Below are positions 3,853 through 60,132 of a DNA stretch of 64,000 nucleotides, in pieces (position 1 is the stretch's first letter; the number at the start of each line of letters is the position of its first letter). The DNA comes from a bacterium (lineage in GTDB: Bacteria; Vulcanimicrobiota; Vulcanimicrobiia; Vulcanimicrobiales; Vulcanimicrobiaceae): assembly GCA_021805775.1 (NCBI GenBank), contig JAJZED010000004.1, forward strand, positions 126,001 to 190,000. Reading direction: 5' to 3'. Made by a program: the position numbers and the translations under genes. Below the pieces are notes generated by a model. That model had not been told where the DNA came from and made no database searches. It saw only the letters and a program-made list of their open reading frames with translations.

Positions 3853-3986
3853 GAGCGAAGCAAATCAAACCATATGGTCAAGTTCTATTAGCACTCTAGC
3901 TAGGTAATTTACTACCATTGCTATTACCATACTTGACGTGAGAAACTGGGCGTGATCCTCAACGCCGAGGGTCGCTCGGGGGAATT

Positions 3987-4190: not shown

Positions 4191-4465
4191 CGCCCGTGAC
4201 CGATCCCGACGCGTTCGCGCAGCGCAGCGTCGAGGCGGCGAATCAGCTCGTCGCCGATGAGTGCGACGCCCTCATGGGCGATCCGACATTTCGCCGATGC
4301 GCGTGGGCTGCCGTCAGCGCGGTCGCAGGCGCGGTCGGTCTAACGCCTACGCTCTTGAGTGGCGCACTGCGCCAGGGTCTCATGCCCGCGACATACGGGC
4401 TCGGGGCGCGCGTGCGGAGGCTCGCGCTCGCGACGTATCGCCGCGCCCATCAGGGGGCAGCATGA
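4187..4465 (+). CDS. hypothetical element protein
   Basis: A 92-residue Ala-rich, mostly helical protein with no motif I recognise. It starts at an ATG inside an ATGA overlap with the excisionase-like gene and ends in another ATGA overlap with the RepA-like ATPase gene. Such coupling suggests a role in replication or regulation with its neighbours, but nothing in the sequence fixes it. Confidence 0.6.
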   Translation: MTPVTDPDAFAQRSVEAANQLVADECDALMGDPTFRRCAWAAVSAVAGAVGLTPTLLSGALRQGLMPATYGLGARVRRLALATYRRAHQGAA

Positions 4466-5742
4466 GTAGCGGCCTCGACGCGGCGGCCTACGGTGAGTTT
4501 CTGCGCTTGGGCGGCGTAACGAGCGCGGCCCAAGAGCCGCGCTATACCCCGCACCCGACCGATATCGGCGGTGACTGCCTGTTAACGCGAGCATCGGATG
4601 TTCGCTTCGAACGGGTCTCGTGGTTTTCGCGCGACCGCATTCCCTATGGCGGCCTAACGCTGCTCGATGGGCCGGGCGGGGTCGGAAAAACGACGCTTAT
4701 GCTTGGGGCAATCGCCGCCGCAACGCGCGGCAAGGGCTATTTCGACAATGAAGGCTTAGAATTGGGAGCGGCCGTCGCGTTGATTATCGCTGAAGAGGAC
4801 GCGCTCGGGCTGCTTAAGGCGAAACTCGACGTCGCCAACGGTGACCTCTCGCGGGTTTATTTTCTGGAGGGGATGAAAGTTGACGGCGAGATTGTGCCGT
4901 TCGAGATGCCGTTTGGCGTTGACGCGCTAGAAGAAGCGATCGTCCAGACCAGCGCGACGGTGGTATTTGTCGATGCACTCTTCTCGCACCTCACGCTCAA
5001 AGGCGACGGCAAGATGTCGCAACAGGTGCGCCGCGCTCTGCGCCCCTTGGTGAAAATGATCGAGCGCACGAACATCGCGTTTTTTGCGATTCGACATTGG
5101 GCGAAAGCTCACGGCGCCGCGTCAAGCCGAGCGCTCGGCTCCGCCGAGCTCGCGAACGTCGCGCGCTCGGTGCTGTCGTTTGGCGCTCACCCGCACGAGG
5201 ACGGCAAGTTTTGCATTTCGCCAAGCAAGATGAATCTAGCGCGCTTTCCGGCGACCCTCGCGTATAGGATCGACGAGGTCGCGACTGTCGATGACGACGG
5301 CAATGCAACGGCCGTTACGCGCGCTGTGCTGGAGGGCGTCGTCGATGACGTCACTGCCGACGATCTTGCAATGCGCTCGCCAGCCGATCCTGATGAGCGC
5401 GGCGTGGCCGAGGACTGGCTACGAGACTATCTCGCCGCCGGCGGGACGCACGCGAGCGCGCAGGTCTACCGCGACGCCCGGAGCGCGGGCGTCGGGTCTC
5501 CAGCGACGCTCCGGCGCGTTGCGAGCGCGATCGGCGTCGTCAAGGAGCGATCGGCGACGCTCGCTGCTCGCGGGGAGAGCGCGAGCACTTGGCGGCTCCC
5601 GCCGTCGGCGACTGCGCCTCCAAGCGCCGCGGTATCGTCGCGGTGCGGCTTTCACGTCGGCAGCGCCGGCGACGACTGCGAGCGCTGCGGCGTTGCGTGG
5701 CGCGACCACCAAATCATCGAGAGGCCGGATGATGCGGATTGA
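4462..5742 (+). CDS. RepA/RecA-like AAA_25 ATPase, putative replicative helicase
   Basis: A 426-residue protein from the ATG at 4462; a longer in-frame start at 4261 would lie in the previous gene and is rejected. Walker A is G70PGGVGKT77 and Walker B is VVFVD at 167-171. RHWAK follows at about 211-215, where RepA-type hexameric helicases carry a conserved basic sensor. The C-terminus has a cysteine/histidine cluster (CGFH and CERCG, about 395-411) that could bind zinc. The architecture resembles the RepA-like ATPases of plasmids and phage satellites. It is the only replication gene in the element. Confidence 0.75.
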   Translation: MSSGLDAAAYGEFLRLGGVTSAAQEPRYTPHPTDIGGDCLLTRASDVRFERVSWFSRDRIPYGGLTLLDGPGGVGKTTLMLGAIAAATRGKGYFDNEGLELGAAVALIIAEEDALGLLKAKLDVANGDLSRVYFLEGMKVDGEIVPFEMPFGVDALEEAIVQTSATVVFVDALFSHLTLKGDGKMSQQVRRALRPLVKMIERTNIAFFAIRHWAKAHGAASSRALGSAELANVARSVLSFGAHPHEDGKFCISPSKMNLARFPATLAYRIDEVATVDDDGNATAVTRAVLEGVVDDVTADDLAMRSPADPDERGVAEDWLRDYLAAGGTHASAQVYRDARSAGVGSPATLRRVASAIGVVKERSATLAARGESASTWRLPPSATAPPSAAVSSRCGFHVGSAGDDCERCGVAWRDHQIIERPDDAD

Positions 5743-5998
5743 TCACGATCTCTTCCTCAAGAGCGCAAAATATCGCACCGCGATTCGCAAGCGCTTGTCG
5801 GAGTTTACCGAGAAGAGGCGCGGGAAGCTCGCCAACTTAGAAGTTGAACATGAGTGTGATCTATCGTGCTGCCGTCGTGAGCCGTGGCTGCTAACGCTTC
5901 AACGATTGCACGACTTGGCCGATAATCGCTGGTCTTCCTCTGGCCGCGTTAGCGCCGTGCAACGCGAGAGATCGGCGCACGCGAAGGGAGCCAAATAG
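5729..5998 (+). CDS. hypothetical basic element protein
   Basis: An 89-residue protein starting at tandem ATGs (5729/5732), 14 bases inside the end of the ATPase gene. It is lysine/arginine rich and carries CDLSCC, which hints at metal or nucleic-acid binding. No family recognised. Its TAG shares a base with the GTG of the next gene (TAGTG). Confidence 0.55.
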   Translation: MMRIDHDLFLKSAKYRTAIRKRLSEFTEKRRGKLANLEVEHECDLSCCRREPWLLTLQRLHDLADNRWSSSGRVSAVQRERSAHAKGAK

Positions 5999-6531
5999 TG
6001 CCAAGAACCTGCCGAATTTGCATTCATCCGCAACGTCGCGATATCGAAGACGAATTGCACCGTTGCACCCCCGAACGCTCGATTGCTGTGCAGTTCGGAA
6101 TCGGCCGGTCGTCGGTTGCAAACCATGCGCGGTTGCATTGCGACGCTCGAGCCGTTCGCGCGCAACGGAAGCGCGCGGCACGCATTGTCGCCGCCGAGCG
6201 CCGGGGTTTCAAAGAGAAGTGCGTGAGGATTGACGCGCCTGCCGACGTCCTCGAATACTCGAAGCGGTTGCTTGGTGAGGTGCTGGGAATTGCGTCGCAC
6301 GCGAAGGAACTCCACGACGACCGCCTCGCCTTGCAGGCTGCGAAACAGGCGACCGACCTCCTCACGCAGATCGGTCGAGCGCACGGATTGTTTCGCGATG
6401 AATCGTTAGTCGTCAATATCGACGCATCGGCGAAGGCGCTAAAAATTATTGGAGAGTTGCCGGAGCCCGAGCTGCGAAGCGCGCTTCTTGCGCTATCGAA
6501 AGAGCCGAAGGAAACGGGTTCCGATGGTTGA
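5998..6531 (+). CDS. zinc/HTH protein, putative small terminase subunit
   Basis: A 177-residue protein starting with GTG. The N-terminus has C-R-I-C and a later H-x-R-L-H-C around a helix-turn-helix (RSIAVQFGIGRSSVANHARLHC, about residues 27-48). The rest is helical. Immediately upstream of, and overlapping by 8 bases, the large terminase gene is the standard position of the DNA-recognition subunit terS, and an HTH is expected there. The call is by position plus the HTH; an element-specific transcription factor is the alternative. Confidence 0.55.
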   Translation: MPRTCRICIHPQRRDIEDELHRCTPERSIAVQFGIGRSSVANHARLHCDARAVRAQRKRAARIVAAERRGFKEKCVRIDAPADVLEYSKRLLGEVLGIASHAKELHDDRLALQAAKQATDLLTQIGRAHGLFRDESLVVNIDASAKALKIIGELPEPELRSALLALSKEPKETGSDG

Positions 6532-7969
6532 CCTGAAAGCGCTTCAGCCGCACCTCCGCCGCGAGCTCGCTCGCAGGCGTTTCCTTGACTTCGCAACGTT
6601 CGTCGATCCGTCGTATAAGAAAGCGCGGCATCTGCGGGCGCTCGCCGACATCCTCGAACGAATCGAACGCGGAGAGCTTAAGCGGGTGATTGTTACGATG
6701 CCACCTCGGCATGGCAAGAGCAGAACATGTTCGCAGCTCTTCCCAGCTTGGTCGCTCGGACGTAACCCGAAGCGTGAGATCGTGCTCGCAGCTTATGGCA
6801 GCGATCTCGCCGAAGCCAATTCCCGACGCGTTCGCGATATCGTTTCGGCCAGCGAGTATCCATTCGACGTGACGCTGCGCGAAGATTCGCGGGCGGTACA
6901 TCGTTGGCAAACGGATCAAGGCGGCTTCGTCGTTGCGGCGGGGTGCGGAAGTGCGCTAACCGGTTTTGGAGCCGATTTGCTCGTCATCGACGATATCGTT
7001 CGCGATCGCGAAAGCGCTGATTCGGCGATTGTTCGCGAATCAACGTGGGCGTGGTATCAGGACGTTGCGCGCACGCGATTGCATCCTAGCGGCGCGCAAA
7101 TCATCGTCGGGACGCGGTGGCACGATGACGACTTCATCGGTCGATTGCTTGCGACGCCGGGATGGGAAGTGCTTTCGCTTCCGGCGATTGCCGACGAGAA
7201 CGATCCTCTTGGTCGCGTACCGGGCGAAGTATTGTGGCCCGAGCGTTTCCCGCTCGACGAATTGCCGAGCGCCGAACGAGGAGAGATCAGTTCGCGTTCG
7301 TTCTCGGCGCTCTATCAGCAACGGCCGGCGCCTGCAAAAGGCTCGCTCTTTAATCTTGATTGGTTCGACCGCCGATACGCCGTCGTGCCGACGCGGACGA
7401 AACCCGTTCGCGTAACCACCGTTGGGAGCGTGCAAGAGATCACTCACGACGTGTTCGTCATTCAAGCGATCGACGCAGCTGCAAAGACGGGCGTCGCAAA
7501 CGATTATTCGGTTATCGTTACGCTCGCGTTCGACGACGCCGATGTGTACCTCGTCGATATCGCCCGCCGTCGGGTGCAATTTGCCGAGCTTGTCGCAATG
7601 GTGAGACAGAACGCGCACCGCTATGCGCCAAGCGTCGTCTATATCGAGGACGCGAGCAACGGAACGCCCGTTATTCAGGCATTGCGGTCGCAATCATCGC
7701 TGCCGATCGTCCCGGTAACACCGAAGGGAAGCAAGACCTCGCGTGCCGAGGCGGTTACCCCTTGGTGCGAATCGCGACGCGTGATCTTACCTGAACGTGC
7801 TTCTTGGCTCGACGCTTTCGTCGATGAGGTCGCGAGCTTCCCGCTTGGTCGGCACGACGACCAAGTCGATGCGTTCGTACTCGCGCTCACGATGCTCGGG
7901 GCGTCGATTCAACGCCGGGATGAAACAAGGCGGCAAGAACGCGCGCTTTTCAGTTGGTTCGATCGGTGA
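6524..7969 (+). CDS. large terminase subunit (TerL)
   Basis: A 481-residue packaging motor. The ATPase domain shows Walker A TMPPRHGKSRT (58-68), Walker B DLLVIDDI (151-158) and motif III GTRWHDDD (196-203). The RNase H-like nuclease domain shows D317 (QAIDAAAK), E375 (VYIEDASNG) and the HDDQVDA motif (444-450). Both halves look intact, so the protein could cut and pump DNA. The ATG at 6524 is taken because it overlaps the previous stop; the longer frame from 6449 is a shadow. No portal gene, the normal docking partner, follows. Confidence 0.93.
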   Translation: MVDLKALQPHLRRELARRRFLDFATFVDPSYKKARHLRALADILERIERGELKRVIVTMPPRHGKSRTCSQLFPAWSLGRNPKREIVLAAYGSDLAEANSRRVRDIVSASEYPFDVTLREDSRAVHRWQTDQGGFVVAAGCGSALTGFGADLLVIDDIVRDRESADSAIVRESTWAWYQDVARTRLHPSGAQIIVGTRWHDDDFIGRLLATPGWEVLSLPAIADENDPLGRVPGEVLWPERFPLDELPSAERGEISSRSFSALYQQRPAPAKGSLFNLDWFDRRYAVVPTRTKPVRVTTVGSVQEITHDVFVIQAIDAAAKTGVANDYSVIVTLAFDDADVYLVDIARRRVQFAELVAMVRQNAHRYAPSVVYIEDASNGTPVIQALRSQSSLPIVPVTPKGSKTSRAEAVTPWCESRRVILPERASWLDAFVDEVASFPLGRHDDQVDAFVLALTMLGASIQRRDETRRQERALFSWFDR

Positions 7970-8063
7970 GTTACCGCCCGCGCCCACGCCGTATGGTGCG
8001 GCCTTCCACGCAAACATCGCTCATTCAGGCGCTTCGGCGTCATAGCAAAGAAAGGAATCTATC

Positions 8064-16246: not shown

Positions 16247-17872
16247 ATGGAACTCGATTTGGGGGTAGGCCAGCAGGTCGGCAAGAGTTCTGCATTGGTG
16301 CGGCGTGCTGCGGCATTGCTTGCCTCCGATCATTCCTTCGATGAACTGTTCGCGCGATTGACCGAGATGCTCGCCGAACTCGTCGATGCATCGACGGTCT
16401 TTGTCGCCCTGCCGTCGGGGAGCTCCGGCTATGCCGTCGAGTACCATTTCGATCACGGAAAGGTGTTACACGAGAACGTTCCCTTACCCGAGGGCTCGGT
16501 CGCCTTACGCGCGATCCGCGAGCAGCGGCTGATCTGGGGCAACGCACCGGAGCAGTGGGCGCCCGGAGGGCGCGTCGCCATCGATATGGAGCACCCGGAG
16601 CGCAACGACAGCATTTCGGCGATCTTTGCGCCGATGCGTCATGCCGGTGCGATCGTTGGTTGTCTCTCGGTGCAGAGCCCGAAGCCCGATGCGTACACCG
16701 AGGCCGAGGCGGAACTTGTGGCCGCGATCGCGCACTTTCTCGGCGTTGCGTTAGAGAACCGGCGGCTCTTCGACCAGAGCCAGCGCATCGCACAGATCGA
16801 TCCGCTCACCGGCCTTCCGAACCATTCCAAACTCGTTCGCGATCTCGAAGCGTTCGTAGCTCGAGCGAGTTCGACGCGCCCGGTCGCTGCGGCGATCTTC
16901 AACGTCGTCAATTTTTCGCAGTTCAACGATACCTACGGCTATGCACTTGGCGACGAAATGTTGCATCGAATCGCCGCCACGATCTCGGCGTTTGCCGCCC
17001 CGAATGTGACCGTCGGTCGCTACGGCGGCGATGCGTTTTTGATGATCGTGCATGGAGAATCGAGCGAGCGGGCAATCGCGACGATCGACGAACTCGCGCG
17101 CGCGTTCTCGGAACTCACTTTCGAAAACTCCGAAGGGCGGATTCCGATCTCGCTGGCTTGCGGGTACGCATTGGCTCCGATCGATGCGCTGACCCGCGTC
17201 GATCTCATCGCCTTATGCACGCACCGTCGTCGCCTCAGTCGCAAACGGGGCGGGGCGCCGGTCGGCGACGATGAGATCGATGCGTTGGCGCTCAACGGTA
17301 ACTTCGCCGAGGTGCAGACGCTCGTCGACGCGCTGATGGATCGCGATCCGTTTACGCGCGTCCACTTGGTTCACGTGAACGCGATGGCCAAGCACTGGTC
17401 GGAGGCGAATCTCGATCTTCAGCCTTCAGAGTTCTCGACGTTCATGCAGGCGAGCCTGCTGCACGATCTCGGCAAGCTGCTCGTCTCCGACCGGATCCTC
17501 GTGAAGCCGGGGCGGCTGACCGCAGGGGAATATCGCTCGATGCAAGAGCACACACGCTTCGGGCACAACATCCTCTCGGATTTTCATCGCTTCGACGATG
17601 TTGCGCGGGTCGTCGCCCAGCATCACGAGCGCTGGGACGGGAAGGGCTATCCTAACGGCATTGCCGGCGAGGATATCGACCGGCTCGCCCGAGCGGTGGC
17701 GATCCTCGATGCCTTCTCGGCGATGGTCGACGACCGGCCCTATCATCGAGGAATCACCGAGGCCGAGGCGATCCTGGAGATTCGCCGTTGTGCCGGGACC
17801 CAGTTCGATCCGGAGCTTGTCGAGCGCTTCGTCGCCTGGCGGACGGAAGGCGGCGGGCCGGGCGCGGTATAA
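16247..17872 (+). CDS. GAF-GGDEF-HD-GYP signalling protein
   Basis: A 541-residue protein: GAF about 15-175, GGDEF about 180-335 with a variant signature RYGGDAF (258-264), and HD-GYP about 355-535. The HD-GYP part has the HD pair at 406-407 (LLHDLGK) and the full HHERWDGKGYP motif (459-469), so c-di-GMP hydrolysis is likely. The GGDEF may be a sensor or a weak cyclase. Start ATG at 16247 is divergent from the fRMsr gene with a 92-bp gap. No membrane segment seen. Confidence 0.9.
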   Translation: MELDLGVGQQVGKSSALVRRAAALLASDHSFDELFARLTEMLAELVDASTVFVALPSGSSGYAVEYHFDHGKVLHENVPLPEGSVALRAIREQRLIWGNAPEQWAPGGRVAIDMEHPERNDSISAIFAPMRHAGAIVGCLSVQSPKPDAYTEAEAELVAAIAHFLGVALENRRLFDQSQRIAQIDPLTGLPNHSKLVRDLEAFVARASSTRPVAAAIFNVVNFSQFNDTYGYALGDEMLHRIAATISAFAAPNVTVGRYGGDAFLMIVHGESSERAIATIDELARAFSELTFENSEGRIPISLACGYALAPIDALTRVDLIALCTHRRRLSRKRGGAPVGDDEIDALALNGNFAEVQTLVDALMDRDPFTRVHLVHVNAMAKHWSEANLDLQPSEFSTFMQASLLHDLGKLLVSDRILVKPGRLTAGEYRSMQEHTRFGHNILSDFHRFDDVARVVAQHHERWDGKGYPNGIAGEDIDRLARAVAILDAFSAMVDDRPYHRGITEAEAILEIRRCAGTQFDPELVERFVAWRTEGGGPGAV

Positions 17873-17884
17873 AGGCCCGGGTAT

Positions 17885-17960
17885 GCGCCCGTAGCTCAAT
17901 ATTGGATAGAGCAAGGCACTCCTAAGGCCGAGGTTGTGAGTTCGAGTCTCACCGGGCGCA
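17885..17960 (+). tRNA. tRNA-Arg(CCT) with a mismatched anticodon stem
   Basis: Acceptor GCGCCCG/CGGGCGC, D-arm with TTGGATA (A20 of arginine tRNAs), T-arm GTGAG/CTCAC and loop CTCCTAA giving anticodon CCT. CCA is not encoded, unlike the other five tRNAs here. The anticodon stem has only three G-C pairs flanked by two A-G mismatches (27/43 and 31/39). Confidence 0.85.
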
Positions 17961-17979
17961 AAAGGTTTATCCTCCCCCC

Positions 17980-18008
17980 TTGCATAGCGTTATCGTGCGT
18001 GCTATCGT
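17980..18008 (+). promoter_or_regulatory. promoter of rpmG-trnW-secE-nusG
   Basis: TTGCAT (17980-17985) and TATCGT (18003-18008) are 17 bp apart. The leader contains the hairpin AACGGAG/CTCCGTT (18018-18024 with 18030-18036) followed by TTCTTT, a possible attenuator, then AAGGA before the rpmG ATG. Confidence 0.6.
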
Positions 18009-18060
18009 AAGAAGCCGAACGGAGCGCGCCTCCGTTTCTTTCATGTATTAAGGACGATCG

Positions 18061-18225
18061 ATGGCCAAGAAAGAGAACCGCGTGATGGTTGTGATGGCGT
18101 GCACGGAGTGCAAACGTCGGAATTACAACACGCAGAAGAACAAGCAAAAGACGACCGAGCGTCTCGAATTGAAGAAGTATTGCCGCTTCTGCCGTTCGCA
18201 CCGTTCCCATCGCGAGACGAAGTAA
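18061..18225 (+). CDS. rpmG: 50S ribosomal protein L33
   Basis: A 54-residue basic protein with two CxxC pairs (C14-C17 and C41-C44), the zinc-binding form of L33. The ATG at 18061 follows TAAGGACGATCG. It is followed within 10 bp by tRNA-Trp, then secE and nusG, the conserved bacterial order. Confidence 0.93.
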
Positions 18226-18234
18226 TCCACCCAA

Positions 18235-18310
18235 AGGGCGGTAGCTCAATTGGTAGAGTAGCGGTCTCCAAAATCGCCGGTTGCAGGTTCGAGTCCTGTC
18301 CGCCCTGCCA
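18235..18310 (+). tRNA. tRNA-Trp(CCA)
   Basis: Acceptor AGGGCGG/CCGCCCT, anticodon loop CTCCAAA giving CCA, T-arm GGTTCGAGTCC, discriminator G and encoded CCA at 18308-18310. Set between rpmG and secE as in many bacteria. Confidence 0.96.
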
Positions 18311-18331
18311 TTCCCAATCGAAAGACGAGAC

Positions 18332-18580
18332 GTGGTGAACGAGAAGAAAAACGTAGCGAACCGACAAGCAGCCTCGATGGCTCGCGCGAGCGCGAACCTC
18401 GCTGCAGGCGATTTCGTGCGCAGCGTGTGGTTGGAGATGAAGCGCGTAACCTGGCCGACTCGCGACGAGTGGGTCGGTGCGACGGTGCTGACGATCGGCC
18501 TCGTGGTCTGCTTGGGAATATTCACCTACGTCGCCGATCAGTTCTTCGGCTTCCTCTTTAACTTCGTGCATCCGTTCTAG
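18332..18580 (+). CDS. secE: preprotein translocase subunit SecE
   Basis: An 82-residue SecE of the short, single-membrane-span type. The conserved amphipathic helix is FVRSVWLEMKRVTWPTRDE (about residues 29-47) and the membrane helix follows (about 50-72). It stabilises SecY in the SecYEG channel. Start is ambiguous: GTG at 18332 or 18335 is chosen; an ATG at 18377 would give a shorter N-terminus. Its stop is 8 bases before nusG. Confidence 0.9.
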   Translation: MVNEKKNVANRQAASMARASANLAAGDFVRSVWLEMKRVTWPTRDEWVGATVLTIGLVVCLGIFTYVADQFFGFLFNFVHPF

Positions 18581-18588
18581 GTGTCCAC

Positions 18589-19194
18589 GTGACCGATATG
18601 GATCATCTCGAAGAACTCGTCGAACGCGATACGACACCCGATTCGGGGCCCGTCGGCGATGAAAAGAAAAATTGGTATGTCGTTCATACCTATTCCGGGT
18701 ACGAGAATAAGGTAAAGGCAAACCTCGAACGCCGCATTCACTCGATGAACATGCAGGACAAAATCTTCCGCGTGCTCGTGCCGATGGAAGATGAAGTCGA
18801 GTTCAAAGACGGCAAACGCAAAGTTACCCCGCGGAAAGTATTCCCCGGCTACGTTCTCGTCGAAATGGTGATGGACGATCGCTCGTGGTATGTCGTTCGT
18901 AATACGCAGGGCGTCACCGGCTTCGTGGGCAGCACCGGACCGGGAGAGAAACCCGTACCGTTGCAAGATAAAGAAGTGAAGACCATCCTCAAGCAGATGG
19001 GCATCGAGGCGCCGAAGTTGAAGATCGATTTCAACAAGGGCGACCGCGTCAAAGTCACCTCGGGGCCGTTCTTCGATTTCACCGGCGTCGTCGACGAAAT
19101 CACTCCCGAGAAAGAACGCTTGCGCGCGCTGATCTCCATCTTCGGACGCGAGACTCCGGTCGAGCTGGAGTTCTTCCAGGTGGAAAAGGTCTAA
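18589..19194 (+). CDS. nusG: transcription termination/antitermination protein NusG
   Basis: A 201-residue NusG. The NGN domain begins KNWYVVHTYSGYENKVKANL (about residues 25-44) and binds the RNA polymerase clamp. The KOW domain is at about 145-175 (FNKGDRVKVTSGPFFDFTGVV) and links to Rho or ribosomal S10. GTG start at 18589. Length and order with secE are standard. Confidence 0.95.
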   Translation: MTDMDHLEELVERDTTPDSGPVGDEKKNWYVVHTYSGYENKVKANLERRIHSMNMQDKIFRVLVPMEDEVEFKDGKRKVTPRKVFPGYVLVEMVMDDRSWYVVRNTQGVTGFVGSTGPGEKPVPLQDKEVKTILKQMGIEAPKLKIDFNKGDRVKVTSGPFFDFTGVVDEITPEKERLRALISIFGRETPVELEFFQVEKV

Positions 19195-19309
19195 CGGCCG
19201 CATAAAATTCCCGTCGACGGTCACCCCGACGTCGATATGGGAGAGGCTCGCTCCGAGCCGCTGAAACGGGGGAGATGCGGTACGCCGCTTCGTTAAACAA
19301 GGAGAGAGC

Positions 19310-19735
19310 ATGGCTAAGAAAATGATCGGCAAGATCGGGTTACAGATCCCTGCCGGCAAAGCAAACCCGGCGCCGCCGATCGGCCCGGCATTGGGCCCCT
19401 ACAGCCTCAATATCATGGATTTCTGCAAGCAGTACAACGAACGTACCGCTTCGCAGGCCGGCATGATCATTCCGGTCGAGATCACCGTCTACGACGATCG
19501 CACCTTTACGTTCGTCACCAAGACCCCTCCGGCGTCGTTTCTCATCAAGCAAGCCCTGAAGATCGAATCGGGAAGCAAAGAGCCGAACCGGAACAAGGTC
19601 GGTAAGCTCACGAACGCTCAGCTCGAAGAGATTGCGAAAGTAAAGATGCCCGACATCAACGCCAACGATCTCGATGCGGCGAAGAAGATCGTCGCCGGAA
19701 CCGCGCGTTCGATGGGCGTTGAGGTGGAGGCGTAA
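19310..19735 (+). CDS. rplK: 50S ribosomal protein L11
   Basis: A 141-residue L11. The N-terminal domain has [22 protein letters not shown], the proline-rich motif that contacts release and elongation factors. The C-terminal domain binds 23S rRNA. The ATG at 19310 follows AAGGAGAGAGC. It is followed by rplA with one base between stop and start. Confidence 0.97.
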
Positions 19736-19736
19736 G

Positions 19737-20438
19737 ATGGCTCGCACGTACGGAAAACGTCTTCGCGCACTCGCTGCCGATTACGATAAAAAACAACTCT
19801 TTTCAACCGTCGAAGCGGTCGCGCTCGTCAAAAAGCACGCGAACGCAAAATTCAACGAGACCATCGAGGCGCATATTCGTTTGGGCGTCGACCCGAAGAA
19901 GAGCGATCAGACGGTTCGCGGAACGGTATTGCTTCCTCACGGAACCGGGCGTACGGTGCGCGTGATTGCGTTTGCGAAGGGCGATAGCGCTCGGGCCGCA
20001 ACCGAAGCCGGCGCGGATATCGTCGGGGATACCGATCTGATCGAAAAGCTCAAAGGTGGTTTCACCGAGTTCGACGTCGCGGTAGCAACGCCCGATATGA
20101 TGGCGCAGGTCGGTAAGGAACTGGGGCGCATCCTCGCACAGAAGATGCCGAACCCGAAGGCCGGTACCGTCTCGCCGAATATCGGCGCCGCCATTCGCGA
20201 TATCAAGGCCGGTAAAGTGGAGTTTCGCCTCGACAAAACCGCGATCGTTCACACGATCGTCGGCAAGGCGAGCTTCGATGAAGCGCAACTCGCCGAGAAC
20301 GTCAGCACGTTGCTCGACGCAATCGTGCGCGCGAAGCCGGCATCATCGAAGGGCACCTATCTGCGGAGCATCACGCTCGTGAGTACGATGGGCCCCGGCG
20401 TTAAGGTCGATCCGAATCGGGTGAAGGCGACCGCCTAG
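19737..20438 (+). CDS. rplA: 50S ribosomal protein L1
   Basis: A 233-residue L1 of the ribosomal stalk. The ATG at 19737 lies just after the rplK stop; the earlier in-frame start at 19674 lies inside rplK. It contains the family segments [13 protein letters not shown] and [14 protein letters not shown]. Its stop overlaps by 4 bases the stop of a convergent carbonic anhydrase gene, which separates it from rplJ. Confidence 0.97.
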
Positions 20439-21058
20439 CCCTCGATCGGCGTTACCCATCCCGTTGCAAGGTCGTAGGTTCCACCTACGACCTTGAGTTT
20501 TTGTCGGGCGATCGCGTCGGCGACGATCGATGACGAGTTGCGAATCTCCGCGACGGTCACGCGCACGTTCTCCGCGACCGCCGCCTCGATCCAGCCTTCG
20601 TCGCGGCGCGTCGCGCGCGCGACCGGCGTTAGGCGATCGACGAGGTGCTGTATCGTTCCGGGTGCCGATTCGCCGCTCTCGAGAAAGTCGACGGCCGCGG
20701 TTAAAGCGCCGCAGGAGCTATGCCCGAGAACGAAGACCAACTGCGCGCCGAGAATGGCGATGCCGTATTCGAGTGTCGCGAGGCCGTAGGTGTCGATAAA
20801 ATTCCCGGCGACGCGAATGACGAAGAGATCGCCGGCCGGGCGATCGAAGAGCGTCTCGACCGGAACGCGCGAATCCGAGCAGCCCAAGACGACCGCGAAC
20901 GGATGCTGCGCGGAGGCGAGTTCGACGCGATGTGCGCTCTGAAGGCCGAAGCTCGGGTGCCCCTCGGTGAAGCGCCGGTTCCCCGCTACGAGCTCGGCAA
21001 CGGCCGCCTCCGGACTCATCGCTCGTCGCCGTTCCTCGCGATCCATTCGTTCGTCCAC
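20435..21058 (-). CDS. beta-class carbonic anhydrase
   Basis: A 207-residue zinc enzyme interconverting CO2 and bicarbonate. Zinc ligands C60, H113 and C116 and the D62-R64 dyad are visible in CSDSRV and GHSSCGAL. No signal peptide, so cytoplasmic. It reads against the ribosomal genes and sits in the gap between rplA and rplJ, where no gene is normally found. Confidence 0.93.
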   Translation of the reverse strand: MDERMDREERRRAMSPEAAVAELVAGNRRFTEGHPSFGLQSAHRVELASAQHPFAVVLGCSDSRVPVETLFDRPAGDLFVIRVAGNFIDTYGLATLEYGIAILGAQLVFVLGHSSCGALTAAVDFLESGESAPGTIQHLVDRLTPVARATRRDEGWIEAAVAENVRVTVAEIRNSSSIVADAIARQKLKVVGGTYDLATGWVTPIEG

Positions 21059-48069: not shown

Positions 48070-51000
48070 ATGGCGACGACGAAGGCAGCGAAATCCGCAA
48101 CGACGACGAGCAGCGGGGGGACGAAGGCAAAGGGAAAACGCTCCGGAGGCGAGGGGAAGAGTACCCCCATGGCCTCGCATTTTCCGATGCCGACCGGTGC
48201 CTTCACCGTCGAAGTCCCGGTCGATCCGGGCCCGAAACGTTCGCGGCACTCCTTCTCGAAGATTCCCCACGTCCTCGAGCTGCCAAACCTTATCGAATTG
48301 CAGAAGGCAAGCTTCGAGTGGTTTAAGACCGAGGGGCTCGCCGAGGCGTTCGCCGCGATCTCGCCGATTAAAGATTTTACCGGCAACTTGATCTTGATGT
48401 TCGGCGAGCATTCGCTCGGCGAACCGAAGTTCTCGATCGAAGAATGCCGCGAGCGCGATATGACCTACAGCGCGCCGCTGCGCGTTCGCGTACGTCTCAT
48501 CACCGCTGAATCCGGCGAGATTAAGGGCATCCCCGACCAAGAGATTTTCATGGGCGATTTCCCGCTCATGACCGATAAGGGCACTTTCATGATCAACGGC
48601 GCCGAGCGCGTGATCGTGAGCCAGCTCGTGCGCTCGCCGGGTTTCCTCGTCGAGAAGGCCAAGCCCGCCGAGGGCAAGGGCTACACCGCGAAGATCATTC
48701 CCAAACGCGGTGCGTGGGTGAAGTTCTTCGCCGGCGCCAGCGACGAAGGCGACCGGTTCGGCGCGATCAATGTCTCATTCGACAAGAGCCGTGCGGTCTC
48801 GATGATCGCCTTCCTTCGCGCGGTTTCATCGCCGGAGCATTTCCCGCTCGATGAAGCGCCCGCGTCGGCCTACGATGACGACGGCCTCACCCGCCCGTTT
48901 ATTGAAAAAGTGCTGCGTGCGTGCGCCGATATGTTCCCTTGGAAAGGGATCGGGCGCCAGGCGACCGCTGCAAGCGAGGCGATCGAAGTTCCGCGGCCGC
49001 AGTCGCAGCACGAGCGACAGGTGCGCGATGTCTTTGCAACGATTTTCCCCAACCGTATCGCGCGCGGCGAAGCGTTCGATCTCGTGGTGGAACTCGGCGA
49101 TAAGAGCAAGCGTGCGGCCGCGGCGGCAAAACTCAGCGCGCTCTATCACCGCAACTGCGTCTGGAACTCCGACGAAGCAATCCTCAAGCTCTTTTCCGGA
49201 ACCTACCCGCGACGTCGCGTCGACGACGGGACCTCGCGCCCGATCGGACGCGCGCCGCGCGGCCTAAAGAAGAAGCAGCAGACGAGCGATCGCGCCGCCG
49301 AACTGCGCGAACTGTTTGATCGGCTCTTCCCCGACGCGAGCCCCGATAACCTCATTCTCAATACGCTGATCGAAGACGGCGATACGGTCAATCGCGAAAC
49401 CGCACTCGAGGCGGTCTACGGAGCGCTGCGTTACGGCGAACCGTTCACCTCGCACGAAGACGCCGAAAAACTGATCCGTACCCTGCTGTTCGATGAAAAC
49501 AAGTGCGAACTCGGGAAAGTCGGGCGTTTCAAGGTCACCTCGAAACTGCATTATCGTATTCTCAACCCGGAGAAAGATTCGCGCATACGTGCCAAGAGCG
49601 AGAAGAAGGGGCTCAACCTTTCGCTTCTCACCGTCGAAGGCGATCGCAGCGAATTTGAAGTCGATGAGTTCGAACCGTTCAGTTATCGGCCCGAGGGCGC
49701 GCCGGGGCTGACGCGGGCCGACTTTATTGCCATCGTGCGCCGGCTCTGCCGCGTCGCGGTGCGCGATATCTCACCCGATGACGTCGATCACTTAGGAAAC
49801 CGCCGCGTCAACACCGTCGGCGAGCTGCTGCAGAATCAATTCCGCGTCGGCTTGCAGCGCCTCGAACGCGTCGTGCGCGAGCGCATGACGACGCAAGAGA
49901 TCGAATCGGTGACGCCGCAGGCGCTCATCAACATTCGGCCCGTCGTTGCCGCGATCAAAGAGTTCTTTGGTTCGAGCCAGCTCTCGCAGTTCATGGACCA
50001 GACCAACTCGCTCGCGGAACTCACGCACAAGCGTCGCCTCTCCGCGCTCGGTCCGGGTGGACTTTCGCGCGAACGCGCCGGCTTTGAAGCGCGCGATGTC
50101 CACACCTCGCATTACGGCCGTATCTGCCCGATCGAAACGCCGGAAGGCCCGAACATCGGTCTGATCGGTTCGCTTGCGACCTACGGACGCGTCAATAGCC
50201 TCGGTTTCATCGAAACGCCGTACCGCATCGTTCGCGACGGTCGCGTTACCGATGAGATTCGCTATTTCACCGCCGACGTCGAAGAAGAGTTCATCATCGG
50301 CCAGGCCAACACGCCGTTGGCTGCAGACGGAACGATTCTCGCCAAGACGGTCGTCTGCCGCCATCGCGGCGACGACATCGAAGAGCCGGCGGGGCGCGTC
50401 GAACTCATGGATATCTCGCCCAAGCAGATCGTCTCGGTCGCGACGGCGTTGATTCCGTTCCTCGAGCACGACGATGCAAACCGCGCGTTGATGGGTGCGA
50501 ACATGCAGCGACAGGCCGTGCCGTTGCTGCGCCCGCAAGCGCCGATCGTCGGCACGGGTATGGAGTATCGCGCCGCTAAAGACTCGGGCAGCCTCGTCGT
50601 CGCCGAAGAAGCGGGAACCGTCGTTGAAGTAGATGCAACGCGCATCGTTCTCGATACCGCCGACGGCGATAAGACCTACGAGTTACTGAAGTTCGTGCGT
50701 AGCAACGCCGGAACGTGCATCAACCAGCGCCCGATCGTCGCGATGGGGGAGAAGGTCGTTGCCGGGCAAGTGCTCGCCGACGGCCCGACTTCAGATGAAG
50801 GCGAGCTCGCACTCGGCCAAAACGTGCTCGTCGCGTTTATGCCGTGGGAAGGCTACAACTACGAAGACGCCATTCTCATCAGCGAGCGGATGGTCAAAGA
50901 AGATCGCTTTACCTCGATTCATATCGAAGAGTATGAATGCGAGGCGCGCGATACCAAGCTCGGGCCGGAAGAGATCACGCGCGATATTCCCAACGTCGGA

Positions 51001-52455
51001 GAAGATGCGCTCAAAGATCTCGACGAGCGCGGCATCATTCGTATCGGCGCCGAAGTGCGCCCCGAAGATATTCTCGTCGGTAAGGTGACGCCGAAAGGCG
51101 AGACCGAACTCACCGCCGAGGAACGCTTGCTCCGTGCAATTTTCGGCGAGAAATCGCGCGAAGTTCGCGATACGAGCCTGAAAGTTCCTCACGGCGAAAA
51201 AGGGAAAATTATCGACGTCAAGGTGTTCTCGCGCGAAAACGGCGACGAACTCTCGCCGGGCGTCAACCACCTCGTTCGCGTCTACGTCGCGCAGAAGCGA
51301 AAGATTCTGCAAGGCGATAAAATGGCCGGACGTCACGGCAACAAGGGCGTGATCGCGAAGGTGCTGCCCGAGGAGGATATGCCCTACCTCGAGGACGGCA
51401 AGCCGGTCGATATCGTGCTCAACCCGCTGGGCGTGCCCTCGCGCATGAACATCGGACAGATTCTCGAGACGCATCTCGGGTGGGCCGCGCGCATGCTCGG
51501 CTTCCAAATCGCGACGCCGGTCTTCGACGGCGCGACAGCGGAAGATATCGAGGATTGGCTGCAGGACGCGGGCTTGCCCGCGGACGGCAAGGCGTGGTTG
51601 CGCGACGGACGGAGCGGCGATCGTTTCGATCGTCCGATCACCGTCGGCATGATCTACATGCTCAAACTCGCGCATCTTGTCGACGATAAGATTCACGCGC
51701 GTTCGACGGGTCCGTACTCGATGATCACGCAGCAACCGCTCGGCGGTAAGGCGCAATTCGGCGGACAGCGCTTCGGCGAGATGGAGGTCTGGGCGCTCGA
51801 AGCGTACGGTGCCGCCTACACGCTGCAAGAGTTGTTGACCGTGAAATCCGACGATGTCGTCGGCCGCGTCAAGACCTACGAAGCGATCGTCAAGGGCGAG
51901 AACGTCATGGAACCCGGCGTTCCCGAATCGTTCAAAGTCCTCATCAAGGAACTGCAGTCGCTCGCGCTCGACGTCAAAGTGCTGACGGAGTCGCGCGAGG
52001 AGATCGACACCCGCGAGTTGCGCCTCGGGAACGACGATATCGGCCTCAACGAAGAGGTTGCGTACGGCGTTCTGATGGGTGCCGAAGATCCGCTGCTCTC
52101 GCAGACGCAGGTTGCCGCGGCGGAAGCCGTTGCAGCTGCGGCGGAGGGAATGCTTCCCGAGATTGAAGCCGAGGAGGAAGCCGAAGAGGAAGAAGAGGAA
52201 CTCGACGACAGCAAACCGTTTGTCGCGGGCCCGATTCCGGCCGCTCCGGCAGCCGCCCGCGCTCCCGAGATCGAAGGCGACGATATTTTCACCCCCGATG
52301 AAGAGATCGCCGTCGACGACGACCTTGAAGGGCCGCAAGGCTACGAACTCGAGGAAGAAGAGGATGAGATCGTCGATGACGATGCTCCCGCCTTCGCCGT
52401 CGACGACGACGATGTCGTCTATCCCGACGCGGGCACCGTCGAGGAAGAGTTCTAA
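48070..52455 (+). CDS. rpoB: RNA polymerase beta subunit with acidic C-terminal tail
   Basis: A 1461-residue beta subunit, longer than the usual 1100-1350. The N-terminal 60 residues are Lys/Ser/Thr rich. Core motifs are standard, e.g. [23 protein letters not shown] in the rifampicin region and [15 protein letters not shown] near the active centre. After the normal end (about residue 1345) it runs on for about 115 residues rich in Glu and Asp ([18 protein letters not shown]). The ATG at 48070 follows AAAGAGAGAACGA. Unlike most bacteria, rpoC does not follow directly. Confidence 0.97.
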
Positions 52456-53530: not shown

Positions 53531-56500
53531 GTGAACAACAACCTCATCGACGTAAATAACTTCGACGCGATGCGCATCGGTTTGGCATCGCCCGAGCATA
53601 TCCGTGCTTGGTCCTTCGGCGAAGTGAAGAAGCCCGAGACGATTAACTATCGCACGCTCAAGCCCGAGCGCGACGGCCTCTTCTGCGAAAAAATCTTCGG
53701 CCCGACCAAAGATTGGGAATGCCACTGCGGTAAGTACAAACGCATCCGCTTCAAGGGGATGATCTGCGACCGTTGCGGCGTTGAAATCACGCGCGCCAAG
53801 GTCCGCCGCGAGCGCATGGGGCACATCGAACTTGCGACCCCCGTCTGTCACATTTGGTATCTCAAGGGCGTGCCCAGCCGCATCGGCATTTTGCTCGATA
53901 TGTCGCCGCGTCAACTCGAGAAAGTCATCTACTTTGCCGCATGGGTCGTCATCGATCCCGGCAATACGCCGCTGCAAAAGCGCGAGGTGCTCTCCGAGCA
54001 GAAGTATCGCGAACTCTCCGACAAGCATAAAGACGATCGCGGTCGCGTTCAGTTCAAAGCCGGCATGGGCGCCGAGGCGATCCGCGAACTGCTCAAGGAT
54101 CTCAATCTGCAAAAAGTGCGCGACGAACTCCGTTCGGAGCTCGACGGCGGCCCCAACGGCTCGCGTCGCACGCGCGCCGGCAAGGATACCGTTAGCCAGA
54201 AGCATCTCAAGACGATCAAGCGCCTGGAGATCGTCGAAGCGCTGATCACCTCGGGCAATAAGCCGGAGTGGATGGTGCTCGAAGCGGTGCCGGTGATCGC
54301 GCCCGAATTGCGCCCGATGGTGCAGCTCGACGGCGGTCGCTTTGCCACCTCGGATCTCAACGATCTCTATCGCCGCGTGATCAATCGCAACAACCGTCTC
54401 AAACGGTTGCTCGATCTCAACGCGCCCGAGATCATCATAAAAAATGAAAAACGCATGCTGCAAGAAGCAGTCGATGCGCTCATCGACAACGGACGCCGCG
54501 GTCGCCCCGTGACCGGCCCCAATAACCGTCCGCTGAAATCGCTCTCCGATATTCTAAAAGGCAAACAGGGGCGCTTCCGTCAGAACCTCCTCGGCAAACG
54601 TGTCGATTACTCCGGCCGTTCGGTTATCGTCGTCGGCCCAACCCTGAAATTGCATCAGTGCGGCCTTCCCAAAGAGATGGCACTCGAGCTCTTCAAGCCG
54701 TTCGTGATGAAGAAACTGGTCGACCGTCAATTAGCGCATAATATCAAGAGCGCGAAACGCATGGTCGAGCGCGTGAAGCCCGAAGTTTGGGATGTCCTTG
54801 AAGAGATCATCAAGGAGCACCCGGTGCTGCTCAACCGCGCACCAACGCTCCATCGCCTCGGTATTCAAGCCTTCGAGCCGGTCTTGGTCGAAGGTAAGGC
54901 GATTCATCTTCACCCGCTGGTCTGTACGCCGTACAACGCCGATTTCGACGGCGACCAGATGGCCGTCCATTTGCCGCTCTCCGCCGGCGCGCAGGCCGAG
55001 GCGCGAATTCTCATGCTCTCGTCGAATAACACCTTGCTGCCGGCATACGGGAACGCCGTTTCGATTCCGACGCAAGATATGGTGTTGGGGCTCTATTACA
55101 TCACGTTCCAACGCGACGAATACAAGGGCCCGGCGCGCGGCGAGATTACCGAGAATTTCGATATCTCCGACCGCCCGGCGAAAAAGCATGCCCCCTCTGC
55201 CGACGCACCGGGCTCGTTGCCGACCTTCTCGAGCTTCAACGAAGTGATGCTGGCCTATGAAAGCCACGCCGTGAAGCTCCAAGAGTGGATCTACGTGCGC
55301 TTCAACGGCGAGTTAGTCAAAACCACCGCCGGCCGCGTGATCTTCAATAGCTCGTTCCCCAAACATTGGGACCACGCGTTCGTCAATCAAATTATTGACA
55401 AGGGCGCGCTCAAGAAACTCATTACGCTCTGCTACCGTAACTATGGCAACGCCGAAACGGCGATGTTCCTCGATGCGGTCAAGGAGTTGGGCTTCCGTTA
55501 TGCCACGCGCTCGGGTACCTCGGTATCGGTCAGCGATATCGTCGTTCCGCAAGCCAAGCATGCAATCATCGAGAAGGCGCAAGCTGAAGTCGACGAACTG
55601 CATCGTTTCTACGAGCAGGGCTTCATCCGTCAGTCCGAACAGTACAATAAAACGATCGAGATCTGGTCGAAGGCCTCTGAAGATGTGACCCAGGCGATGC
55701 AGAAGGCGCAAGAACCGCTCAACCCGGTCTTCATGATGGCGACTTCGGGCGCTCGCGGCTCGATCGCGCAGGTGAAACAGCTCGGCGGTATGCGCGGCTT
55801 GATGTCCGATCCCAGCGGTGAAATTCTCGAAATCCCGGTCAAGGCATCGCTGAAAGAAGGCTTGACGATGTTCGAGTACTTCATCTCGACGCACGGTGCT
55901 CGTAAGGGGCTCGCCGACACCGCGCTGCGTACCGCCGACTCCGGGTATCTTACCCGGCGTTTGGTCGACGTCGCGCAAGACGTTATCGTTCGCGAAGACG
56001 ATTGCGGCACGGCCGACGGCATCCTCGTGTACGACATTCGCGTCGGCCGCGAGATCATCGAGCCGATCACCGACCGCATCATCGGGCGTCGCTGTGCCGA
56101 AGATGTCGTTCACGGTAAAGAGACGCTGGTCAAACGCGGTGAAGAGATCGACGAAGATAAGGCAAAAGAGATCGTCGATGCCGGTATCCCAACGGTAAAA
56201 ATCCGTTCGGTGCTCACCTGTAAGTCGAAATACGGCGTCTGCTCCGCCTGTTACGGCCGCGATCTTGCAACCGGCAAACACGTCGATATCGGCACTGCGG
56301 TCGGCATCATCGCCGCGCAGTCGATCGGCGAACCGGGCACGCAGTTAACGCTGCGTACCTTCCACACCGGTGGTGTCGCAACCGAGGATATCATTACCGG
56401 TCTTCCGCGCGTGGAAGAAATCTTCGAAGCGCGTAAGCCCAAGGGCGAAGCGGTCGTCGCTGAGATCGGCGGGCGCGTCTCCTTTGGTGAAGATAAAATC

Positions 56501-57388
56501 CATCGTACCGTTATCGTCACCGACGAAGCGGCGCTCTACGACGAGAAGAATCAGCCCCCGGTCTACGAGATTCCGCAGGGAACGCATCTCGCGGTCACCG
56601 ATGGGCAACTCGTCGAGCCGGGCGACCGACTCACCGAGGGCTCGCTCAATCCGCATACGATTCTGAAATACAAAGGCGAGACCGCGCTTCAGGATTACCT
56701 CGTGCAAGAAGTGCAGAAGGTCTACCGATCGCAGGGCGTCGATATCAACGACAAACACATCGAAGTGATCGTGCGTTCGATGCTTCGCAAGGTGAAGATC
56801 ACCGATGGCGGTGCGACGCATCTGCTCCCCGGACAGACGGTCGAATCGTCGGTATTCAACGATGCGAACGAAAAGGCGCGGAACGAGAAAAAAGAGGTTG
56901 CCGAAGCACTACCGGTCTTGCTCGGCGTTACCAAGGCCTCGCTGGCGACCGATTCGTTCCTCTCGGCGGCATCGTTCCAAGAAACGACCCGCGTCCTCAC
57001 CGACGCGGCGATCCGCGGAAAATACGACCCGCTACTGGGGCTCAAGGAGAACGTGATTATCGGCAAACTTATTCCCGCGGGAACGGGTATGTCGCGTTAT
57101 CGCAATCTCACCATCCAACCGCAGGGCGAGGATGTGGATGCCGATGGGCGTCCGCTGCACCCGCAGTTCGATACGAGCTATGCTATGACCGCCGACGAGG
57201 CGGCCCTCATCGAAGCGATGGCGGTCGGCGGCGGCGAGACGAGCCGACTCGCATCGGCGTACGAGCGCAACAACGCGCCGCCGACCGTGCACTACGAAGG
57301 TGAATACGCGGAGCACGAATCGGTTCACGTCGCGAAACCGCGTACCCAGTACGATCAGCGCAACGGGATCAGCATCGAAGAGCTCTAA
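53531..57388 (+). CDS. rpoC: RNA polymerase beta' subunit
   Basis: A 1285-residue beta' subunit. Zinc finger 1 is C64-x-C66-x12-C79-x2-C82. The catalytic Mg site is NADFDGDQ with D471, D473 and D475. The second zinc site ([13 protein letters not shown]) and the trigger-loop region [13 protein letters not shown] are present. GTG start at 53531 with GGGAG upstream. It ends the conserved gene string; rpsL-rpsG-fusA, which often follows, does not. Confidence 0.97.
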
Positions 57389-57403
57389 GCCCTTCGAAGA
57401 TGA

Positions 57404-57435
57404 GAGACGGGAAGCACGCGCTTCCCGTCTCTTTT
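57404..57435 (+). terminator. rho-independent terminator of rpoC
   Basis: A 12-bp perfect stem, GAGACGGGAAGC (57404-57415) with GCTTCCCGTCTC (57420-57431), loop ACGC, followed by TTTTATT. Confidence 0.95.
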
Positions 57436-58037: not shown

Positions 58038-58370
58038 GTGGTCGAGGTATTCTATCGGTATCGCGTTCATCCTCAACAAGCCGCGGCATTCGAACATGCC
58101 TTCGGGCCGAATGGCCCATTCGCAAGCCTTTTTAAGACGCATCCGGGATATCGGCGCACGCGCCTCTTTCGGCACCGCGGCGAGGAGGATATCTATCTCT
58201 CCATCGACGTGTGGGAGAGCAAGAGCGACTGGGATGCCTTTCGCGCCGCTCACGCCGATCGCTACGCGCAACTCGATCGCGAATTACATCTGCTCTATCT
58301 CGAAGAGCATCTGCTTGGATTTTTCGAAGGTGACGAAGAGTACCACGCGCCCTTCGAGGCCTCCATATAA
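58038..58370 (+). CDS. ABM-type (antibiotic biosynthesis monooxygenase fold) small protein
   Basis: A 110-residue protein with the ferredoxin-like ABM dimer pattern: VVEVFYRYRVHPQQAAAFEHAF, then HPGYRRTRLFRHRGEEDIYLSIDVWESKSDWDAFRAAH. The family includes small oxygenases and haem-handling proteins; no catalytic residues can be assigned. GTG start at 58038, next to the peroxiredoxin gene. Confidence 0.7.
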   Translation: MVEVFYRYRVHPQQAAAFEHAFGPNGPFASLFKTHPGYRRTRLFRHRGEEDIYLSIDVWESKSDWDAFRAAHADRYAQLDRELHLLYLEEHLLGFFEGDEEYHAPFEASI

Positions 58371-58417: not shown

Positions 58418-58918
58418 ATGAGTACAACCTTCGGCCGAACATCGACGGCCTCGCAGAGTTCGACGTTGAAAGTCGGCGATGCAGCGCCCGATTTCAAGCT
58501 TGAAAGCCATTTAGGTGAGAAATTTTCGCTCGCCGCTCGCAAAGGGGTCGGCCCGACCGTATTGGCGTTCATTCCGTTCGCCTTCACCCCGACTTGAACC
58601 AATGAAATGCCCGGCTTCGAACGCGCGCTGCCGCGTTTTGCCGAGCATGATGCCCAGGTCGTGGGCATCTCCATCGATTCAGTTCACTCGCTGCGCGCAT
58701 GGGCGCTGAGCATGGGCGGCATCACCTATCCCCTGCTCGCCGATTTCTGGCCGCACGGCGAGGTCGCGAAGCAGTACGGCGTTCTCCGCGAAGGCGGTTT
58801 CGCCGAACGGGCAGTCTTCATTATCGATCGCAACGGTATCGTCCGTTACGTCGATATCCATGCTATCGGCGAAGCGCCCGACCCCGAACAGGTCCTCGAG
58901 AAACTCGCCGAGCTGTAG
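58418..58918 (+). CDS. selenocysteine-containing peroxiredoxin (AhpE/BCP-like), TGA read-through
   Basis: One frame of 166 codons runs from the ATG at 58418 to TAG at 58916-58918 with a single in-frame TGA at 58595-58597. The TGA is codon 60 and falls exactly where peroxiredoxins have the peroxidatic Cys: FIPFAFTPT-U-TNEMPGFE, with the conserved T-x-x-C context and residues kept after it. The rest is an intact thioredoxin-fold domain (VVGISIDSVHSLRAWA, YPLLADFWPHGEVAKQYGV, ERAVFIIDRNGIVRYVDIH). Selenocysteine is therefore the best reading; the enzyme would reduce peroxides. A start at 58607 would lack the catalytic residue. Confidence 0.85.
58595..58633 (+). promoter_or_regulatory. UGA codon and candidate bacterial SECIS
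   Basis: After the TGA, CGGC (58612-58615) can pair with GCCG (58630-58633), with two further inner pairs around an apical loop about 23-28 nt downstream of the TGA, inside the range known for bacterial SECIS. The stem is weak, so a folding programme should decide. Confidence 0.4.
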
Positions 58919-58982: not shown

Positions 58983-59423
58983 ATGAACGCGTTCTCCGCT
59001 CTCGGGCTGCTCGTCGACTCCCAGCCGGATCGCCCGCCGCAAGCGATCGCGCTCTACGCCTGGGGCGGGAGCGCGCTCAACGCCGCGGTCGATGCCGCAA
59101 TCGTCGAGCTCCTTCCCGGCTCGCGCTACCATCGCGGCTCCTTTGCGTTGCTCTTGCGCGCCCCCGGGGGAGGCGCGCTTGGGGCGATCCCGGTGCAGCG
59201 AGCCGCCGGCGATATCGCCGCCTTCGCTCGGTATCTCGCGCGCTGCGCTGCGACTCGCTCCGTTCACCTCTTCGCGCGGAGTCTTCCCGACGCATCGGCG
59301 ATGCGGCGGGCGCGGCGTGCCGGGGTGGAGATCGTCGTGAGCCCGATCGAGGCGCTCGGCGCGATGACCGTCGTTCATCGGGAGGCGCCGCCGCCTTCAG
59401 CGCGAGCCCAGGATGCGGCGTGA
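58983..59423 (+). CDS. hypothetical protein, possibly damage-regulated
   Basis: A 146-residue protein. The middle (SFALLLRAPGGGALGAIPVQRAAGDIAAFARYLARC) suggests an alpha/beta fold; no motif recognised. The upstream palindrome shared with recA makes an SOS role worth testing. It ends inside the longest frame of the response regulator, but that gene's likely start is at 59440. Confidence 0.55.
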   Translation: MNAFSALGLLVDSQPDRPPQAIALYAWGGSALNAAVDAAIVELLPGSRYHRGSFALLLRAPGGGALGAIPVQRAAGDIAAFARYLARCAATRSVHLFARSLPDASAMRRARRAGVEIVVSPIEALGAMTVVHREAPPPSARAQDAA

Positions 59424-59439
59424 TACTTGCGCAAGACCT

Positions 59440-60132
59440 ATGATTACCATGCAACAACACGCCAAAATTGCCGTCGTCGACGACGACCGCATGCTGCGCG
59501 AAATGATCGAGATGGGGCTGACGCAAGAAGGCTACGAGGTGAAGAGCGCTTCGGATGGGCAGGCTGCGCTCGATCTGGTTCGCTCGTTTAATCCCGACGC
59601 GATTCTCCTCGACATTATGATGCCGAAGATCGACGGCGTCACGTTGGTGCCGATGCTACGCACGATCACGCAGGCGCCGATCCTCATGCTCACCGCCAAG
59701 GGCGATCTCGACGACAAACTCAAGACGCTCGGCTCGGGGGCGGACGATTACGTCGTGAAGCCGTTCCTCTTCGAAGAACTCATCGCGCGCCTCCAGGCGC
59801 ATCTGCGTCGTCCGCAGATCCACGAAGACGAACAGATTCGCTGGAACGATCTCGCGCTCGATCTCGGTTCGCGCGAGTTGCGTCGCGGCAACGAGCGAAT
59901 CGAACTCACGCAGCGAGAGTTCGATCTGTTGGCGGTTTTTATGCGCGATCCGCGGCGTATTTTTAGTAAAGAGCATCTGCTCGAACTCGTTTGGGGGCAC
60001 GATTTCGAAGGCGGCCCGAATATCGTTGAAACCTATATTTCGTACCTGCGGGCAAAGGTCGACAAAACGGGCTCGGCGACATCATTTCTCCGGACGGTAC
60101 GCGGCGTCGGGTACGGTTTAAGCAACCTATGA
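59440..60132 (+). CDS. OmpR-family response regulator
   Basis: A 230-residue regulator with a REC domain (phospho-D58 in LLDIMMPKIDG; K in VKPFLFEEL) and a C-terminal winged helix (ELTQREFDLLAVFMRDPRRIF to TSFLRTVRGVGYGLSNL). ATG at 59440 or 59449; the frame extends to 59413 but that start overlaps the previous gene. ATGA overlap with its cognate kinase. Confidence 0.93.
   Translation: MITMQQHAKIAVVDDDRMLREMIEMGLTQEGYEVKSASDGQAALDLVRSFNPDAILLDIMMPKIDGVTLVPMLRTITQAPILMLTAKGDLDDKLKTLGSGADDYVVKPFLFEELIARLQAHLRRPQIHEDEQIRWNDLALDLGSRELRRGNERIELTQREFDLLAVFMRDPRRIFSKEHLLELVWGHDFEGGPNIVETYISYLRAKVDKTGSATSFLRTVRGVGYGLSNL

Follow-up and report, generated by a model that had tools for sequence, protein, structure and literature searches.

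A predicted selenocysteine-containing, AhpE-like peroxiredoxin and the selenocysteine trait in Candidatus Eremiobacterota (Vulcanimicrobiota)

Given that a TGA triplet interrupts an apparent peroxiredoxin gene within the 64,000-nucleotide stretch of DNA analyzed here (the window), we wondered whether this codon inserts selenocysteine (Sec) in place of the catalytic cysteine, or whether it marks a damaged gene, a reassigned codon or the end of a shorter product. The gene (positions 58418 to 58918, plus strand) runs from an ATG start over 166 codons to a TAG stop and contains exactly one internal stop, the TGA of codon 60 (58595 to 58597, plus strand), in the context FTPT-U-TNEM. The protein obtained by reading through this codon matches the Pfam AhpC-TSA family (E value 5.8e-37, 126.8 bits), and the catalytic Cys of Mycobacterium tuberculosis AhpE aligns with codon 60, which bears out the original prediction of an otherwise intact peroxiredoxin with a single TGA at the peroxidatic position. 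Considering the frame, the TGA, the Sec machinery of the genome, conservation, purifying selection, a SECIS-like structure and the protein fold, all of which are sequence-based results, we regard it as very probable, close to certain, that the gene encodes an AhpE-like peroxiredoxin (here Prx) with Sec as its peroxidatic residue.

The assignment to the AhpE type is consistent across sequence and predicted structure. M. tuberculosis AhpE was the best sequence match among solved structures (E value 1.7e-29), and an AlphaFold model of Prx, with Cys modelled for Sec, reached a pLDDT of 92.7 and a pTM of 0.89; when this model was compared with the folds in the PDB, the best 12 matches were all AhpE (TM scores of 0.86 to 0.94). 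The hallmarks of a peroxiredoxin, namely the AhpC/TSA domain, the PxxxT/SxxC(U) motif and a conserved Arg, were all found. The active-site motif PxxxTxxU extends from P53 to U60 (PFAFTPTU; 58574 to 58597, plus strand), and R131 is encoded at 58808 to 58810 (plus strand). Among the TGA-containing homologues described below, P53 and U60 are present in 51/51 and T57 in 49/51, while R131 is invariant in TGA and Cys homologues alike. T57, U60 and R131 correspond to Thr42, Cys45 and Arg116 of AhpE, the residues around the thiolate in that enzyme (PMC4965862). Prx has no cysteine at all, U60 being the only residue of this kind, and the other copies from the same genus likewise lack Cys; since there is none, a one-Sec cycle that depends on an external reductant would be expected. 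Thus, Prx appears to be of the AhpE-like one-Cys type without a resolving Cys, a mechanism deduced from its sequence. One AhpE structure, PDB 5id2, carries a title stating that the protein was crystallized after exposure to mycothiol.

If the TGA were an accident of sequencing or of recent decay, it should be confined to this locus. Instead, TGA occupies the homologous codon in 51 loci, 45 of which are nonduplicate and come from separate assemblies (six are probable repeats of genomes already counted), spanning Eremiobacterota, Chloroflexota and Bacillota. The other 59 homologues carry a Cys codon at this site, with TGC or TGT in Deltaproteobacteria, Streptomyces and others; neither TAA nor TAG was ever the stop at this codon, and the surrounding frame contains no further stop in any of the 51. 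Within the genus, all nine genomes with a Prx gene (the source genome and eight others) have the TGA, while no orthologue was seen in the draft genome of one other member (G004). Most orthologues from the family and order share the TGA, and a scan of genome contigs, which also yielded a same-genus-like protein from Candidatus Eremiobacterota that is 93% identical (L055), added TGA loci from Anaerolineae, other Chloroflexota, Sulfobacillus harzensis, a Bacillaceae metagenome-assembled genome (MAG) and one MAG labelled Actinobacteria. Moreover, same-genus pairs give a dN/dS of 0.048 for the codons preceding the TGA and 0.046 for those following it. Purifying selection, as estimated from these sequences, is thus equally strong on both sides, and what lies downstream is kept as protein-coding sequence in frame with the upstream part. 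It is true that the source genome is a draft and that TGA lies one base away from a Cys codon, and both would favor a sequencing or assembly error for TGC or TGT, or a recent pseudogene that has left the gene dead. However, a misread codon is excluded because the TGA recurs in many independent genomes, and the identical TGA in 45 nonduplicate loci, the frame free of other stops and the low downstream dN/dS (~0.05) make the entire error or pseudogene explanation extremely improbable.

Two observations on more distant or unusually placed copies stand apart from this argument. In a tree built with residue 60 masked, the branch leading to the same-genus sequences (L021 to L029) is long, and their weakly supported (91/82) neighbors are the Cys forms of actinobacteria, not the remaining Sec forms of Eremiobacterota; this placement may reflect either a transfer or a fast branch. 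In addition, three class-level relatives (G078, G082 and G088) have more distant Prx homologues, 36 to 40% identical and with one TGA each; in G088, no selA was seen, yet its SelD gene has one TGA.

The same conservation bears on a further alternative, in which translation would stop at the TGA to give a short N-terminal peptide, and a separate C-terminal protein would start from an internal ATG at 58607. There is indeed such an ATG three codons past the TGA, and the reading frame that it opens has 103 residues. The two halves, however, form one conserved fold, the catalytic motif spans the TGA, residues near it are conserved on either side, and the internal ATG is replaced by an Ile codon in L031, L040, L042, L044 and most Anaerolineae, so that we give this possibility hardly any weight.

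Whether the organism could decode UGA as Sec depends on its machinery, which the original prediction had expected to exist and which was found in full, each component above its cutoff. In the source genome (a 96% complete draft comprising 28 contigs and 2.59 Mb), tRNA-Sec (selC) is located on contig C5 at 5683 to 5772 (65.8 bits against a cutoff of 47; anticodon TCA according to ARAGORN), SelA on C3 at 17585 to 18892 (471 bits), SelB directly after it at 18925 to 20754 (305 bits) and SelD (L018) on C7 at 250066 to 250989, minus strand (366 bits), the three proteins scoring above curated cutoffs. Together with the TGA in the 45 nonduplicate loci, this agrees with the predicted Sec reading of codon 60. 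The SelD gene itself contains a TGA at codon 18 (SSCAGUASKL), a site that we take to be equivalent to Cys17 of Escherichia coli SelD and that aligns with the Cys in the AGC of the selenide, water dikinase structure 3u0o. A formate dehydrogenase alpha subunit (FdhA; contig C18, L133:16-3753; TIGR01553, 865 bits, over the cutoff) likewise carries a TGA, at codon 192 (NQARIUHSS), and the hairpin downstream of it has the loop GGUCU, presumably the same loop as in the E. coli fdhF SECIS; directly upstream lies an MFS transporter with the look of an oxalate/formate antiporter. Our check of the source genome covered the SelD, Fdh-alpha and AhpC/TSA families, and the TGA codons at known Sec sites in Prx, SelD and FdhA give at least three candidate selenoproteins.

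These additional in-frame TGA codons could also be taken to mean that the whole genome uses TGA as a sense codon, for instance for Trp or Gly, rather than as a signal for Sec. Against this, the TGA codons of SelD and FdhA are located exactly at Sec sites, long genes, rpoB and rpoC among them, are free of in-frame TGA, the response regulator gene at 59413 to 60132 terminates in TGA, the tRNA-Trp in the window has the anticodon CCA, and the TCA tRNA that was found is tRNA-Sec. With TGA serving as an ordinary stop and a tRNA-Trp of anticodon CCA, the code is therefore the standard one, and a genome-wide reassignment has next to no chance of being correct.

As for the position of the gene, the original prediction had placed it beside rpoBC, which holds for its proximity: rpoB lies at 48070 to 52455 and rpoC at 53531 to 57388. 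Membership in an rpoBC unit is not visible: at 57402 to 57433, past the end of rpoC, lies a strong hairpin resembling a terminator. An ABM-domain gene (58038 to 58370) precedes Prx, and a reading frame without assignment and then a two-component pair come after it. The rpoBC neighborhood is thus incidental, and nothing links Prx to transcription. Elsewhere in the window, a tyrosine-type integrase (1829 to 3022) next to a cluster of tRNA genes, along with a large reading frame resembling a terminase (6449 to 7969), suggests that positions 1286 to 8000 may represent a prophage or other integrated element.

Reading UGA as Sec in bacteria involves a SECIS hairpin, for which a published model asks for a loop of 3 to 9 nt with G in one of its first two positions, an upper stem of 4 to 16 bp, a distance of 16 to 37 nt from the UGA and a minimum free energy (MFE) of at most -7.5 (PMC13188914). 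The stem-loop at 58607 to 58648 (plus strand), with a 7-bp upper stem and the apical loop CGCUGC (58626 to 58631) 28 nt past the TGA, agrees with this model on every point, including the required loop G, while the preferred GG/GU is absent from the loop. A SECIS-like stem had been predicted here but described as weak; the stem is present, and its weakness is not upheld, as the range 58595 to 58645 (z = -1.43) cuts the lower stem and 58590 to 58650 folds at -20.9 kcal/mol with z = -2.36. The stem-loop is also stronger than in synonymous shuffles. To compare homologues, we used z-scores against shuffles that preserve the protein and the codon use of the gene, because the strict MFE cutoff alone is passed by 47/51 Sec and 34/45 Cys homologues and so fails to distinguish them. 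Downstream of the codon, nonredundant TGA homologues fold more stably than their shuffles (mean z = -2.25, n = 34), whereas Cys homologues show no excess (z = -0.25, n = 36); the P value of this difference (Mann-Whitney, P = 6e-10) is optimistic because related sequences are not independent.

The shape of the element differs between lineages, as judged from the alignments: RNAalifold found no common structure when all TGA homologues were folded together. In the 14 Chloroflexota/Bacillota homologues to which the covariation test was limited, the helix covaries, with 13 cells changed on both sides compared with 4.8 in shuffles; none of 500 shuffles scored as high, and sliding the partner destroyed the signal. 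Codon differences that retain the amino acid are also scarce after the TGA (15.5% in codons 61 to 77 and 21.6% in codons 78 to 98, compared with 32 to 45% in other blocks), and every one of the 17-codon windows lowest in synonymous change has its first codon in the range 62 to 75, which points to a constraint at the nucleotide level there.

From this evidence, we infer Sec insertion and, further along, the peroxidase activity, substrate and reductant of Prx. In the proposed scheme, SelD would make selenophosphate, SelA would convert Ser-tRNA-Sec to Sec-tRNA-Sec, and SelB would bind the SECIS hairpin immediately past the UGA and deliver the latter, with codon 60 then specifying Sec and not a stop. 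The selenolate of Sec60, held by Thr57 and Arg131, would then attack a peroxide (H2O2, an organic peroxide or peroxynitrite) to give a selenenic acid, which an external thiol or redoxin would have to reduce in a cycle of the one-Cys type. That activity, substrate and reductant are deduced, and that the source genome has further AhpC/TSA-domain proteins, would both be compatible with a peroxiredoxin-fold Sec protein that serves chiefly in a task other than peroxide removal, such as redox sensing or thiol oxidoreduction. We consider such a task unlikely, though less remote than the preceding alternatives, given that the complete peroxidatic motif and the Arg are kept, that Prx has no CxxC or UxxC motif and that the closest fold, AhpE, is a known peroxidase.

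The wider distribution of the trait suggests both retention and loss. SelA scores over the cutoff in 98 of 118 relatives and most SelD genes of the phylum have one TGA, so the Sec trait, as read from genomes, is widespread in the phylum. In one genus of the same family (g19: G027, G053, G062, G068 and G072), selA, SelD over the cutoff and Sec Prx are all absent from the five genomes, an apparent loss of the whole trait. Two Cys orthologues from the family, L035 (genome G025) and L041 (G023), are nested within the Sec clade of the masked tree and have the Cys codons TGT and TGC, respectively, in place of TGA; their downstream regions show no excess of structure (z = 0.05 for G025 and 0.87 for G023), and both genomes retain selA. 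This pattern suggests a replacement of Sec by Cys. Among 77 genomes of the family and order, 29 of the 67 with selA have the TGA form, as does 1 of the 10 that lack selA (Fisher, P = 0.08); the association is only suggestive.

In the literature searched, which covered few subscription papers, we found no report of Sec in Eremiobacterota, WPS-2 or Vulcanimicrobiota. To the extent of that literature, both the occurrence of the Sec trait in the phylum and the clade of AhpE-type Sec proteins are new, although the subtype may sit in earlier COG1225 lists. The sequences thus indicate that Candidatus Eremiobacterota (now Vulcanimicrobiota), most of which is uncultured, has the Sec trait, with at least three candidates for selenoproteins; of these, routine annotation will miss Prx or truncate it at the TGA. 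A compact peroxiredoxin with one Sec and no Cys, together with natural Cys counterparts in the family, would provide material to test what selenium contributes to peroxide reduction. It is tempting to speculate, with somewhat less than even confidence, that the AhpE-type Sec proteins form an undescribed subfamily in Eremiobacterota, Chloroflexota and Bacillota, with a single selenium and, in the source genus, no Cys; that their SECIS loops have GA or GC rather than GG/GU and are served by a SelB whose specificity differs somewhat; and that one Eremiobacterota branch went back to Cys and lost its SECIS.

Sec-peroxiredoxins with a TxxU motif are, as the original prediction noted, an established bacterial selenoprotein family (PF00578/COG1225; PMC9312934, PMC1088965, PMC1794560, PMC13188914), the first having been described in Eubacterium acidaminophilum in 2001, as cited in PMC9312934. 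Prx resembles these proteins in the peroxidatic UGA within PxxxTxxU, the SECIS inside the coding region and the bacterial Sec machinery (PMC9312934, PMC13188914), but differs in being AhpE-like, in having no Cys and in coming from another phylum; it scores 52.8 bits with the NCBIfam PrxU equivalog NF040737, below the cutoff of 270. With M. tuberculosis AhpE (Rv2238c), a one-Cys peroxiredoxin, Prx shares the conserved Thr, catalytic residue and Arg as well as a DFWPHG motif at 37 to 38% identity, whereas Cys45 of AhpE is Sec in Prx. The homologues from Anaerolineae, other Chloroflexota, S. harzensis and the Bacillaceae MAG (L057 to L070, L074, L080 and L081) are 45 to 56% identical to Prx and share its TGA codon, its motifs and the position of the SECIS-like hairpin; unlike Prx, several Anaerolineae proteins have one Cys at position 91, and the SECIS loops of the Chloroflexota and Bacillota forms are mostly of the NGAN type.
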